In this document: positions 16,096-20,513 of the stretch, piece by piece | Layout: each line of letters begins with the position of its first letter | How positions within the stretch are numbered: position 1 is the stretch's first letter | Source of the DNA: Clostridiales bacterium | GTDB lineage: Bacteria > Bacillota > Clostridia > Lachnospirales > Bianqueaceae | Direction: 5' to 3' | Assembly (NCBI GenBank): GCA_024689505.1 | Contig: JAILDJ010000004.1 | Location: 22,368 to 86,367 of the forward strand | Length of the DNA stretch: 64,000 nt | Position numbers and translations under genes: made by a program | Notes under the pieces: generated by a model | What the model was told of the DNA's origin: nothing | What the model saw: only the letters and a program-made list of their open reading frames with translations | Databases searched by the model: none

Positions 16096-17232
16096 ATGTA
16101 TGATCTGATCATCGCCGGAGCGGGGCCGGCCGGAAGTACACTGGCGCGCCGCATCGGCAAGGACCGTAAGGTCTTACTTTTAGATAAACGCGATCTGTCC
16201 GGCGCGGTACATTTCACAGGAGCAGCTGAGAAATGCTGCGGCGGTCTGCTGAACCCGCAGGCACAGGACGCATTGACAGAACAGGGCATCGCTCTGCCCA
16301 GAAGGATCCTGGAGGATCCGCAGCTGTTCTCGGTACGGGCGATCGATTTCGATAATCATATGGAACGCGTGTACCCCAAGCGCTACGTCAACATCGACAG
16401 GGTCGCCTTTGACCGCTATCTGATCGAATTGGCCGAAGAGCAGCCCGGGGTCACCTTGATGGAAAAAACACTGTTGCAGGATTTTGAGCAGCTGGAGGAT
16501 CGTGTGCGCGTCCGTGTGCTGCATAAGCCAAGCGGCGAAGTGCGGTATCTGGAGGCCAAGATCCTTGTCGGAGCGGATGGGGCGGCTTCCATCGTGCGGG
16601 AACGCATGAAGGAACGGTATCTGATCCCGGTCTCCGGCAATGTTTTGAGCGGCGCTGCAAAGGAATATGCTTGCCTGCAGGAACATTTCACGATGCCGGA
16701 GGGCTTCACGATGCCTTGGCATGCGGCCATATTCGACCGCTATGTCACAGACTTTTATAGCTGGATGATCCCGAAGGAAAACAGGTTGATCCTGGGTTCG
16801 GCGATCCCGGCAGGAGAGGATCTGCGCCTTAGGTTTTCCCGGCTGAAGGCAGAGCTGATCGATCTGGGATATCCACTGCAAGGTGCTCCCATCTACCGCA
16901 GCGGCGCCAAACTGCTCAGACCGCGCATGTTCGGCAGTGTCATTTCCGGCAAGGACCGCATCTTCCTTTGCGGCGAAGCGGCCGGGCTGATCAGCCCCAG
17001 TTCCGCGGAGGGCATCAGCTACGCGATCCGGAGCGGATCCATGCTGGCCGATGTACTGGCAAAGCCGGAGCAGGGCCGTCATAAAGCCTATGATCGGGCT
17101 TTGTGCGGATTGAAAAAGGAGATCGCAACGAAGAGTTTAAAATCACCAGTAATGTATGAACCCGCGCTGCGCGGACCGGTCTTTGTCAGCCGCCTGCTCA
17201 GCCTCAAGGTAAAGGATGTGCATCATGGCTGA
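16096..17232 (+). CDS. FAD-dependent oxidoreductase (geranylgeranyl reductase-like family)
   Basis: DLIIAGAGPAGSTLARRI; ILVGADGAASIVRERM; FLCGEAAGLISPSSAEGISYAI. SD aggagg immediately upstream of 16096. Confidence 0.8.
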   Translation: MYDLIIAGAGPAGSTLARRIGKDRKVLLLDKRDLSGAVHFTGAAEKCCGGLLNPQAQDALTEQGIALPRRILEDPQLFSVRAIDFDNHMERVYPKRYVNIDRVAFDRYLIELAEEQPGVTLMEKTLLQDFEQLEDRVRVRVLHKPSGEVRYLEAKILVGADGAASIVRERMKERYLIPVSGNVLSGAAKEYACLQEHFTMPEGFTMPWHAAIFDRYVTDFYSWMIPKENRLILGSAIPAGEDLRLRFSRLKAELIDLGYPLQGAPIYRSGAKLLRPRMFGSVISGKDRIFLCGEAAGLISPSSAEGISYAIRSGSMLADVLAKPEQGRHKAYDRALCGLKKEIATKSLKSPVMYEPALRGPVFVSRLLSLKVKDVHHG

Positions 17233-18631
17233 CTATCGGATGAATGACCGCCGCCGCACGTCCTCCAACCGCAGACCGCCGCAGGGGAACCGACCTGCCT
17301 ATGGGCGTCCTGCCGAGAGACGGCCTGCTTCGGGCAGACCTGGGATGAGACCTGCGCCTTCGGGTACAGGCGCGCCAAGAAGGCCTCAGGGAAAAGCCCG
17401 CTATCGGATCGAGAAGCCAGGCCGCCTGATCACAGCCGGTCTGATCCTGGTCCTTCTGATCTTCTTGCTCAGCAAGCTGGGCGGAGGTCACAAAACGGCT
17501 GAACCGCAGACGGCGGAATCCTCACAGGATACGGCGGATCGCGATGAGACCTACCGTAAGTCACAGGAGGAAAGCGCGGCCGCAGAAGAAGAAAAGGAAC
17601 TTGGAACAGGACAAAGGGGCTTGTATTCAGGCTATAAGACGACGGTCAGTGAGCTGGACGATCAGGTCATGGGCTTTATGAGCGGTATGATCCTGGCCCA
17701 TATCGACAATCATGCAAAGGATCCGGACCAGCAGCTGAGCGTGCAGAAAGTCCGTTACAATTACCATGTCGTTATCGATCCGGCCCATGGCGGGGAAGAC
17801 GTTGGTTTCATGGCCGGAGATGTGTCTGAAAACCGTCTGAACCTGATCTTCGCCCAGAAGATCCAGGGTAAAGTGCGGGAACTGGATCCGGCGATCGACG
17901 TGGTCCTGACCCGTGACAACGATGTGTTCGTTGAATTGGCAGACCGCGTCAGTTTGGCGAACAACCGCGATGCGGATCTGTTCGTCAATATCCAGTGTGC
18001 CTCCAATGAAGAGGATCCGGAAGCCAACGGCCTCGGCGTCCTGTATTGGGACAGTGAAGAGGGCACACCGCGCGGCAAGGAATCCTTGCACATCGGGATG
18101 AAGATCTCAGAAGTGGCTGCCGAGGCGCTGGGACTGAAAGACCGCGGTGTCCGCAGCGATATGATGGAAGTCCTGTACGAGACAACGATGCCGGCCCTTT
18201 CCATCAAACTGGGATATCTGACCAACGAACAAGATCTGGCGGCACTGACGGATGAAGTCCTGCAGGACCGCATGGCGGAAGCAGTGGCGAAAGTCATCGT
18301 GGAAGCGGTCAACCAGCATGAACCCCACGTAGACGTGAACATCCCCGAAGTGACCACGGCGAAGGATGACGATAGTGCATCCTCCTCGGATGCACAGACG
18401 GATTCTTCCGAGACATCGTCGGAAGATAGCTATGAAGAAGAAAGCTATACGGAAGACAGCTACGAAGAAGATAGCTATGCTGAGGACAGTTACGAAGAGG
18501 AGAGCTACGAAGAAGACGGTTACGAGGGCGACGGCTACGAAGGTGATGGTTACGAGGATGGGGACGGCGATGGCGATGGCCAGGAAGACGTCGGAGAAGT
18601 TGATGGTTATGACGAGGACGAGGACGAGTAG
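17225..18631 (+). CDS. Amidase_3-family (N-acetylmuramoyl-L-alanine amidase-like) membrane protein, catalytic residues apparently degenerate
   Basis: Basic N-terminus, TM (LITAGLILVLLIFLLSKLG), VVIDPAHGGEDVGF, SENRLNLIFAQKI; canonical SIHxN is NIQCAS; acidic SYEED tail. Confidence 0.85.
   Translation: MADYRMNDRRRTSSNRRPPQGNRPAYGRPAERRPASGRPGMRPAPSGTGAPRRPQGKARYRIEKPGRLITAGLILVLLIFLLSKLGGGHKTAEPQTAESSQDTADRDETYRKSQEESAAAEEEKELGTGQRGLYSGYKTTVSELDDQVMGFMSGMILAHIDNHAKDPDQQLSVQKVRYNYHVVIDPAHGGEDVGFMAGDVSENRLNLIFAQKIQGKVRELDPAIDVVLTRDNDVFVELADRVSLANNRDADLFVNIQCASNEEDPEANGLGVLYWDSEEGTPRGKESLHIGMKISEVAAEALGLKDRGVRSDMMEVLYETTMPALSIKLGYLTNEQDLAALTDEVLQDRMAEAVAKVIVEAVNQHEPHVDVNIPEVTTAKDDDSASSSDAQTDSSETSSEDSYEEESYTEDSYEEDSYAEDSYEEESYEEDGYEGDGYEGDGYEDGDGDGDGQEDVGEVDGYDEDEDE
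18421..18590 (+). repeat. in-frame degenerate repeat (~15-nt unit) encoding SYEED/GYEGD tail
   Basis: agctatgaagaagaaagctatacggaagacagctacgaagaagat... within the 17225..18631 CDS. Confidence 0.8.
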
Positions 18632-18642
18632 GAGGATGCGTC

Positions 18643-19701
18643 ATGGCAGTCATGGTATATAAATGCCCACACTGTGGTGCGGCTCTGGAATTCGATGCTG
18701 AAGCCCAGAAACTGACCTGCGATTATTGCAAATCGGAGTTCACACCTGAACAGGCTTTGGCGGTCGAACAGAATGTCGAGCCACAGGATATCCGTGAGGA
18801 GACACCGGAGGATTCCGAGTTCTTCAACGGTCATATCAAGGCATGGCATTGCCCGGAATGCGGGGCGGACATCGTGGCCGATGCCAATACGGCAGCGACC
18901 TTCTGCCGTTTCTGCGGTGCGCCTACATTGATCGAGACCAACCTGACCGGGGATTATCGTCCTGTACGGCTGATCCCGTTCAAGATCTCTAAAGAGGAGG
19001 CCAAAACGGCGTTCCTGAAATGGTGTCATAATGGTAAGATCACGCCAAAGGATTTTGCCAGTGAACAGCAGCTGGAAAAGATCACCGGTATGTACGTGCC
19101 TTTCTGGCTTTTCGATTGCCAGGTCGAAGGTCTCGCCAGCGGGATCGGTACCCGCCGCAGGTCCTGGATCCATGGAGATATAGAGTATACCAATACACAA
19201 TACTTCCGCATCCGCCGCCGGGCCAATCTGCATTTCATGAAAGTGCCGGCGGACGGTTCCAAGGGCATGGACAATCAAATGATGGACTATCTGGAGCCCT
19301 ATGATTATACCCAGCTGATCGAGTTCGAGATGCCCTATCTGGCGGGTTATATAGCCGAAAAATATGATGAGTCGCACGAGGTGGTGTACCCGCGGATCCA
19401 GGAGCGGATCGACAAGTATACCTATGCGCAGCTGCGCGATACGATCTCTGAATATCAGTCTGTGCAGATGGATGGACATAAGACGATCTTCCATAAGAGC
19501 GATGCCATGTATTCCATGCTGCCGGTCTGGATGCTGACCTATCGTTATCAAGGGAAAAACTACCTGTTCGCCATGAATGGGCAGAATGGTAAGGTCGTGG
19601 GCGATCCACCCAAGGATCACCGTAGGATCCTGTTCAGGTCCGGTGTTTTGGGCGTCATCATCTACGTGATCCTTTTCTTGATCGGAGGGTTCCTGTTATG
19701 A
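18643..19701 (+). CDS. Membrane protein with two zinc-ribbon motifs (TFIIB-type zinc ribbon family)
   Basis: CPHCGAALEFDAEAQKLTCDYCKSEF; CPECGADIVADANTAATFCRFCGAPT; C-terminal TM. Confidence 0.8.
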   Translation: MAVMVYKCPHCGAALEFDAEAQKLTCDYCKSEFTPEQALAVEQNVEPQDIREETPEDSEFFNGHIKAWHCPECGADIVADANTAATFCRFCGAPTLIETNLTGDYRPVRLIPFKISKEEAKTAFLKWCHNGKITPKDFASEQQLEKITGMYVPFWLFDCQVEGLASGIGTRRRSWIHGDIEYTNTQYFRIRRRANLHFMKVPADGSKGMDNQMMDYLEPYDYTQLIEFEMPYLAGYIAEKYDESHEVVYPRIQERIDKYTYAQLRDTISEYQSVQMDGHKTIFHKSDAMYSMLPVWMLTYRYQGKNYLFAMNGQNGKVVGDPPKDHRRILFRSGVLGVIIYVILFLIGGFLL

Positions 19702-20513
19702 GACATATGAATCTGATCCGGATCCTCACGTGCCTGTTCACTGTACTGCTGTTGCATCCGATTTTCCTGCATGCGGAAGTGACCGGCCAGCGCGTCTACG
19801 ATGAAGCGGACATCCTGAGTGAAGAAGAAGAGATCCGTCTGGAACAGCTCTGCAAATCCTATGCGGATGAGACCCATATGGATTTCGTGATCCTGACGAC
19901 CGACGATGCACAGTCCAAGACGTCGGAAGCCTTCGCGGATGACTTCTACGATGAAGGCGGTTTTGGTTATGACAAGCCGCAGGGGAACGGCGTCCTGTTC
20001 TTGATCGACATGGACAACCGGGAGATCTGCATTTCCACGTGCGGTGATGCGATCTATTATATGACGGACAAGCGGATCGACGAGGTCCTGGAAGCGGTCT
20101 ATGAATCGGTCTCTGTGGGAGATTACGGTGGCGGCTGCAAGACCTTCTTGCAGAAGACGGCGGCGTTCCTGAAAAGCGATCCCTACGCGCGGCCTACGCT
20201 CAAGCAGCGGATGCTTGCGTCGTTGAAACGCAGTCCGATCTACATCGCGATCGCTGCGGTCGTCGCGTGTGTGTATGGCGGCTCTTTGAAGAGATCCCGC
20301 GCGTACAGAAACACTACGAATTTCACGACCTATCAGGATCGGGGCAATTTCCACCTGGTCCAGCGGGAAGACTTCTTCCTGCGGGAGACGACTACGACGC
20401 GCAGGATCGTCACGGATACGGGACGTGGAAGCGGCGGAGGACACAGCGGCGGTTCATCCACCCATGTATCATCCGGCGGTGTCACCCATGGCGGCGGCAG
20501 CATGAAATTCTAG
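19698..20513 (+). CDS. TPM domain-containing membrane protein
   Basis: Signal peptide, VYDEADILSEEEEIRLEQLCKSYADETHMDFVILTTDDA; Gly/Ser-rich C-terminus GRGSGGGHSGGSSTHVSSGGVTHGGGSMKF. Confidence 0.8.
   Translation: MRHMNLIRILTCLFTVLLLHPIFLHAEVTGQRVYDEADILSEEEEIRLEQLCKSYADETHMDFVILTTDDAQSKTSEAFADDFYDEGGFGYDKPQGNGVLFLIDMDNREICISTCGDAIYYMTDKRIDEVLEAVYESVSVGDYGGGCKTFLQKTAAFLKSDPYARPTLKQRMLASLKRSPIYIAIAAVVACVYGGSLKRSRAYRNTTNFTTYQDRGNFHLVQREDFFLRETTTTRRIVTDTGRGSGGGHSGGSSTHVSSGGVTHGGGSMKF

Follow-up and report, generated by a model that had tools for sequence, protein, structure and literature searches.

In a family of uncultured gut and rumen bacteria, we found a gene at a fixed genomic spot that probably encodes a membrane-anchored pseudo-amidase, an Amidase_3 protein that has lost catalysis while its fold is selected for a non-catalytic role in the envelope, a reading to which we assign a probability of roughly two in three. 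The gene lies in a 64,000-nucleotide stretch of contig JAILDJ010000004.1 of a Clostridiales bacterium (the window), and its features are collected in Table 1.

Table 1. Features of the gene and of its predicted product, numbered by position in the window
Feature	Position	Strand	Basis or remark
CDS, predicted anchored pseudo-amidase	17225..18631	+	468 aa ORF
Arg/Pro-rich N-terminus, predicted cytoplasmic, aa 1-66, net +14	17225..17422	+	ends in conserved juxtamembrane motif
Single TM segment, aa 68-86	17426..17482	+	hydropathy
Helical segment preceding the domain, aa 135-178	17627..17758	+	predicted helix, pLDDT about 60
Amidase_3 domain, aa 182-358	17768..18298	+	PF01520 profile match, AlphaFold model
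H188 (CAT), first zinc ligand position, kept	17786..17788	+	alignment
E202 (GAA), second zinc ligand position, kept	17828..17830	+	alignment; invariant in 18/18 orthologues
Q257 (CAG), replacing the third zinc ligand His	17993..17995	+	alignment
K328 (AAA), replacing the catalytic Glu	18206..18208	+	alignment
Acidic tail, aa 363-468, net -45, 10 Tyr	18311..18628	+	sequence composition
15-bp tandem repeats coding SYEED/GYEGD units	18422..18555	+	repeat analysis; unit x 8 at 18422-18542

Results

The gene and the upstream FAD-oxidoreductase gene overlap by 8 nt, and AAAGG lies upstream of the start codon, so that co-transcription and translational coupling of the two genes are probable. By the positive-inside rule, the basic N-terminus of the product is predicted to lie in the cytoplasm and the Amidase_3 domain outside the membrane. 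The juxtamembrane motif that closes the N-terminus reads [KR]-[YWR]-x-[LI]-x-x-P-x-[RK]-[LF] (KARYRIEKPGRL), with P65 invariant in 17 orthologues, and a Ser/Glu linker joins the TM segment to the helical segment. We rejected the idea that this motif is common to other membrane proteins, as the weak extra matches in G002, G003, and G007 were TM segments and Ser/Glu-rich linkers only.

Both sequence and structure assign the domain to the Amidase_3 family, as the first-pass annotation had done. The Pfam profile search gave PF01520 at 126 bits (cut-off 27) as the sole match of the protein, and no LytM (M23) domain was found among the Pfam profiles. The AlphaFold model of the domain, with pLDDT mostly above 90, adopts the canonical Amidase_3 fold, and Foldseek aligned it to CwlV (1JWQ) with a TM score of 0.92 and an rmsd of 1.5 Å; over the catalytic domains of CwlV, 4RN7, and AmiC2, TM scores by target length were 0.90-0.92 at rmsd 1.5-1.6 Å and 30-35% identity. 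Against the equivalog model for the spore amidase CwlD (NCBIfam TIGR02883), the protein scored 56.5 bits, below the cut-off of 221.6. A phage endolysin was rejected because phage matches were confined to the domain at about 32% identity, and a defence gene because PADLOC gave nothing.

Two of the four positions that make up the site of zinc-dependent N-acetylmuramoyl-L-alanine amidases (His-Glu-His plus a catalytic Glu) are lost, the window protein reading H188, E202, Q257, and K328. The first-pass annotation had described exactly these two replacements, codon for codon, together with a retained first zinc-ligand motif and Glu region, and both retained residues are indeed present. A shifted His or Glu that rebuilds the site was rejected: the alignment to the solved enzymes CwlV 1JWQ, 4RN7, and 5EMI runs without gaps at both lost positions, and hence no loop shift restores either residue. 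For comparison we used 24 non-orthologous Amidase_3 proteins (19 proteins from other families of the order, plus 5 paralogues from genomes of the window family); the H/E/H/E site is intact in all 24, and the losses in the window protein are therefore not family-wide noise. Thirteen columns are invariant in this set, of which five are altered in the window protein (G187A, S255N, H257Q, N259A, and E328K), all of them in active-site motifs, and none of the six outside these motifs (D185, G194, R230, R241, G269, and R307) has changed. The claim that the rest of the domain is intact thus holds outside the pocket and fails within it, where G187, S255, and N259 have changed too. Gly10, His11, Glu46, His101, and Glu176 of Rv3717 have been named as conserved among structural homologues (PMC3852659), and three of these five are replaced in our alignment. 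We infer that the window protein is without peptidoglycan amidase activity, while residual or unconventional activity would be compatible with its sequence.

An orthologue is present in all 19 family genomes examined, one of them cut by a contig end; in other families among 295 genomes of the order, the full-length architecture was not found and matches were to the domain only. Synteny is kept in 17/17 family neighbourhoods, apart from occasional lost or inserted genes, in the order mutL, miaA, methionine gamma-lyase, rsmF, FAD oxidoreductase, pseudo-amidase gene, zinc-ribbon, TPM, and oxidoreductases (names by Pfam). The FAD-oxidoreductase gene of other families sits on separate contigs or far from the Amidase_3 matches. 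Downstream of the gene in the window lies a pair (18643-20513) that encodes a TFIIB-type zinc-ribbon membrane protein and a TPM-domain protein, and the same pair adjoins the gene in g1, g2, g4, 2/3 g3 genomes, and one g5 genome.

We placed the catalytic positions on a species tree built from eight neighbouring genes, ((g1,(g3,g4)),(g2,g5)), in which g1 is the genus of the window protein and the main branches are strongly supported, g3 alone standing at 81. At the positions of H188, E202, H257, and E328, g1 has H/E/(Q or N)/(K or R), g2 the intact H/E/H/E, g3 and g4 C/E/H/E, and g5 (A, R, G, V, or H)/E/(A, C, R, or H)/Y. Only 2 of the 18 whole-domain orthologues, both from g2, retain the full site; each of the other 16 lacks one or more catalytic residues, and in 11 the missing residues include the catalytic Glu. 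Since g2, g3, and g4 still have this Glu, its losses in g1 and g5 are independent wherever the root is placed, and on the tree used it was lost separately in two branches, to Lys or Arg in g1 and to Tyr in g5. The change of H188 to Cys in g3 and g4 is a third one. All five g3 and g4 orthologues (L013, L016, L019, L033, and L034) have this Cys in a DPGCGG motif and keep the other His and both Glu, which possibly gives them a Cys-Glu-His zinc site absent from the comparison enzymes; because Cys may still bind zinc, we call these proteins altered rather than dead. All seven g5 orthologues (L014, L015, and L035-L039) have Tyr for the catalytic Glu and freely varying residues at the zinc-ligand His positions, as if the Glu had been lost first and the ligands then freed. 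None of the 18 has changed E202, which is presumably kept for a structural purpose.

The replacements are conserved among related species. The Q/K pair, whose conservation the first-pass annotation had suggested checking, is common to three species of the window genus, and a fourth has N/R. We rejected a sequencing or assembly error because the three Q/K congeners are separately assembled MAGs from rumen or sheep that differ in synonymous codons (CAG/CAA, AAA/AAG) and the fourth carries N/R, and we rejected MAG contamination because synteny with the congeners is conserved. Within the genus, at a dS of about 1, the domain evolves with a dN/dS of 0.063; the helical segment (SGYKTTVSELDDQVMGFMSGM...), modelled at low confidence, shows 0.008 to the nearest congener and is, at 98% identity, the best-conserved part of the protein within the genus. 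Several of the dS values are saturated. The domain value is similar to those of the neighbouring genes rsmF (0.066), miaA (0.087), and tpm (0.057), and two dead orthologues of another genus gave 0.032 at an unsaturated dS of 0.22. Reading frames are intact in 18/18 orthologues with a whole domain. The Amidase_3 domain is thus under strong purifying selection at housekeeping level, and the proposal of selected loss instead of decay is supported by the shared Q/K or N/R in four species, a dN/dS of about 0.06, synteny, and the independent losses in sister genera.

Discussion

We propose that this single-pass membrane protein would present its Amidase_3 fold on the external side of the membrane. 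There the domain, held by its anchor, and the helix in front of it would together form a binding module through which other envelope proteins are controlled or positioned; the basic juxtamembrane and N-terminal part would face the cytoplasm. The membrane anchor and the acidic, Tyr-rich tail pointed out in the first-pass annotation are both there, as one TM segment behind a strongly basic N-terminus and a strongly acidic repeat tail, and its suggestion of a regulatory or scaffold role is plausible. Its further suggestion of a peptidoglycan-binding sensor is weakened by charge. Positive charge has been discussed as an aid to wall binding (PMC3852659), whereas the window domain carries a net charge of -19, where the comparison enzymes average near -5, and the tail adds -45. 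Direct attraction to the anionic wall is thus unlikely, and binding to a protein partner would be more probable than a wall-sensing role. Domain charges of -18 to -25 occur throughout g1, g2, and g5, unusually acidic even in the intact genus. The role is probably one of regulation through partner binding. It may be shared across the family; the proposal does not require this, since the g2 proteins may still be enzymes, and perhaps so may those of g3 and g4, where Cys could act as a zinc ligand.

The candidate partners include the active amidases that remain in the cell. The sole other PF01520 match in the genome is a 521 aa membrane-anchored protein on contig C46, outside the window (L002:991-2553 and L211:8138-9700, both minus strand), which keeps the zinc ligands while its catalytic Glu is replaced by Thr (ACT); the same position has Thr (ACC) in G003 and Glu (GAG) in G002, and the two Thr copies compare at a dN/dS of 0.07. 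A full site is thus missing from both Amidase_3 proteins detected in the window genome, in an assembly about 93% complete from which an intact one could be absent, and Amidase_2 proteins are present in 3 copies. The first-pass annotation named an amidase activator among the possible roles. A specific activator or restrainer of these Amidase_2 enzymes, resembling EnvC/NlpD or ActH, would fit the finding that G000, G001, and all g5 genomes yielded no full-site Amidase_3 protein and yet have Amidase_2 enzymes, and control of amidases by partner proteins is established (PMC8496864). We nevertheless consider so specific a task unlikely, as G002 and the g3 genomes have the pseudo-amidase orthologue but no Amidase_2 match, and we saw no hydrolase gene linked to it either physically or in the genome.

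A domain that acts as a passive spacer or display scaffold, with selection falling on the anchor, the helix, and the acidic tail, would account for the helix showing the strongest constraint of any part within the genus and for every orthologue having an acidic tail. The tail is, however, the least conserved and fastest-changing part, its length and repeat differing between genera (one congener has SWTEE repeats, and other genera have short tails), and the specific YEED repeat is hence unlikely to be a conserved functional element. In the L006 tail (the G002 orthologue), an SWTEE run replaces SYEED and the acidic-aromatic periodicity is kept. With the amidase domain itself at housekeeping-level constraint, we regard a passive domain as quite improbable.

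There is, similarly, only a slim chance that the protein is still a hydrolase with a divergent site in which H188 and E202 work with other residues, and which might function only where a partner provides metal or residues. Both residues are kept in the window genus, and partner-dependent amidases exist, such as CwlD of C. difficile, which needs GerS to hold its zinc (PMC8496864). Against this, the exchange of the catalytic Glu for Lys or Arg reverses the charge in the pocket, S255, N259, and G187 have changed as well, the alignment shows no conserved His or Glu in the vicinity, and the sister clade g5, of the same architecture, no longer shares any one set of zinc ligands. Recent relaxed decay of a redundant amidase on its way out is the least credible account and was already disfavoured, for while the free variation at the g5 ligand positions (A/R/G/V/H and A/C/R/H) is as expected once catalysis is lost, the frames and synteny are preserved, dN/dS is low between dead copies too, and the replacement states are themselves conserved (K/R in 4/4 g1, Y in 7/7 g5).

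Returning to a selected, non-catalytic envelope role, we consider the odds about even for a broader version of it, namely that one orthologous gene lost catalysis independently in several genera under strong purifying selection and represents an extracytoplasmic counterpart of CwlM whose job has been non-catalytic since the common ancestor. If true, the essential job was non-catalytic already in that ancestor, and the family would contain a class of envelope regulators not described before in Firmicutes. Repeated catalytic loss with lasting constraint makes the use of amidase folds as envelope regulators or binding modules testable, and it cautions that neither these genes nor the second Amidase_3 gene of the genome should be annotated as amidases. 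Amidase-fold pseudo-enzymes are known chiefly from one cytoplasmic case, CwlM, and we found in the open-access literature no extracytoplasmic pseudo-amidase of this fold and none beyond CwlM.

Among known systems, CwlM is the nearest in concept, and LytH of S. aureus, which is membrane-anchored, is the nearest in topology. LytH (activator ActH, 7TJ4) has an extracellular Amidase_3 domain that the window domain matches in sequence and fold. It is active and depends on ActH (PMC8496864), whereas two of the catalytic residues are gone from the window protein, a difference that also separates it from the intact soluble catalytic domains of CwlV, 4RN7, and AmiC2. The degenerate LytM regulators of the EnvC/NlpD type are likewise homologues of peptidoglycan hydrolases that lost catalysis, and they regulate amidases (PMC4946905, PMC8594824), but they have the M23/LytM fold instead of Amidase_3. 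CwlM (Rv3915) is a mycobacterial Amidase_3 homologue with degenerate zinc-binding residues and an essential function that is regulatory, and its orthologues across Actinobacteria have intact or degenerate sites (PMC4946905). The window protein resembles it as an Amidase_3 homologue with degenerate ligands, its non-catalytic function being suggested by selection, and the analogy to CwlM drawn in the first-pass annotation thus holds only in principle. CwlM is cytoplasmic, with homologues that have no secretion signal, and is phospho-regulated to activate MurA (PMC4946905), the phosphorylation being due to PknB, while the protein from these uncultured Clostridia has an N-terminal TM segment, a domain predicted to lie outside, and an acidic repeat tail, and thereby departs from the defining feature of CwlM.
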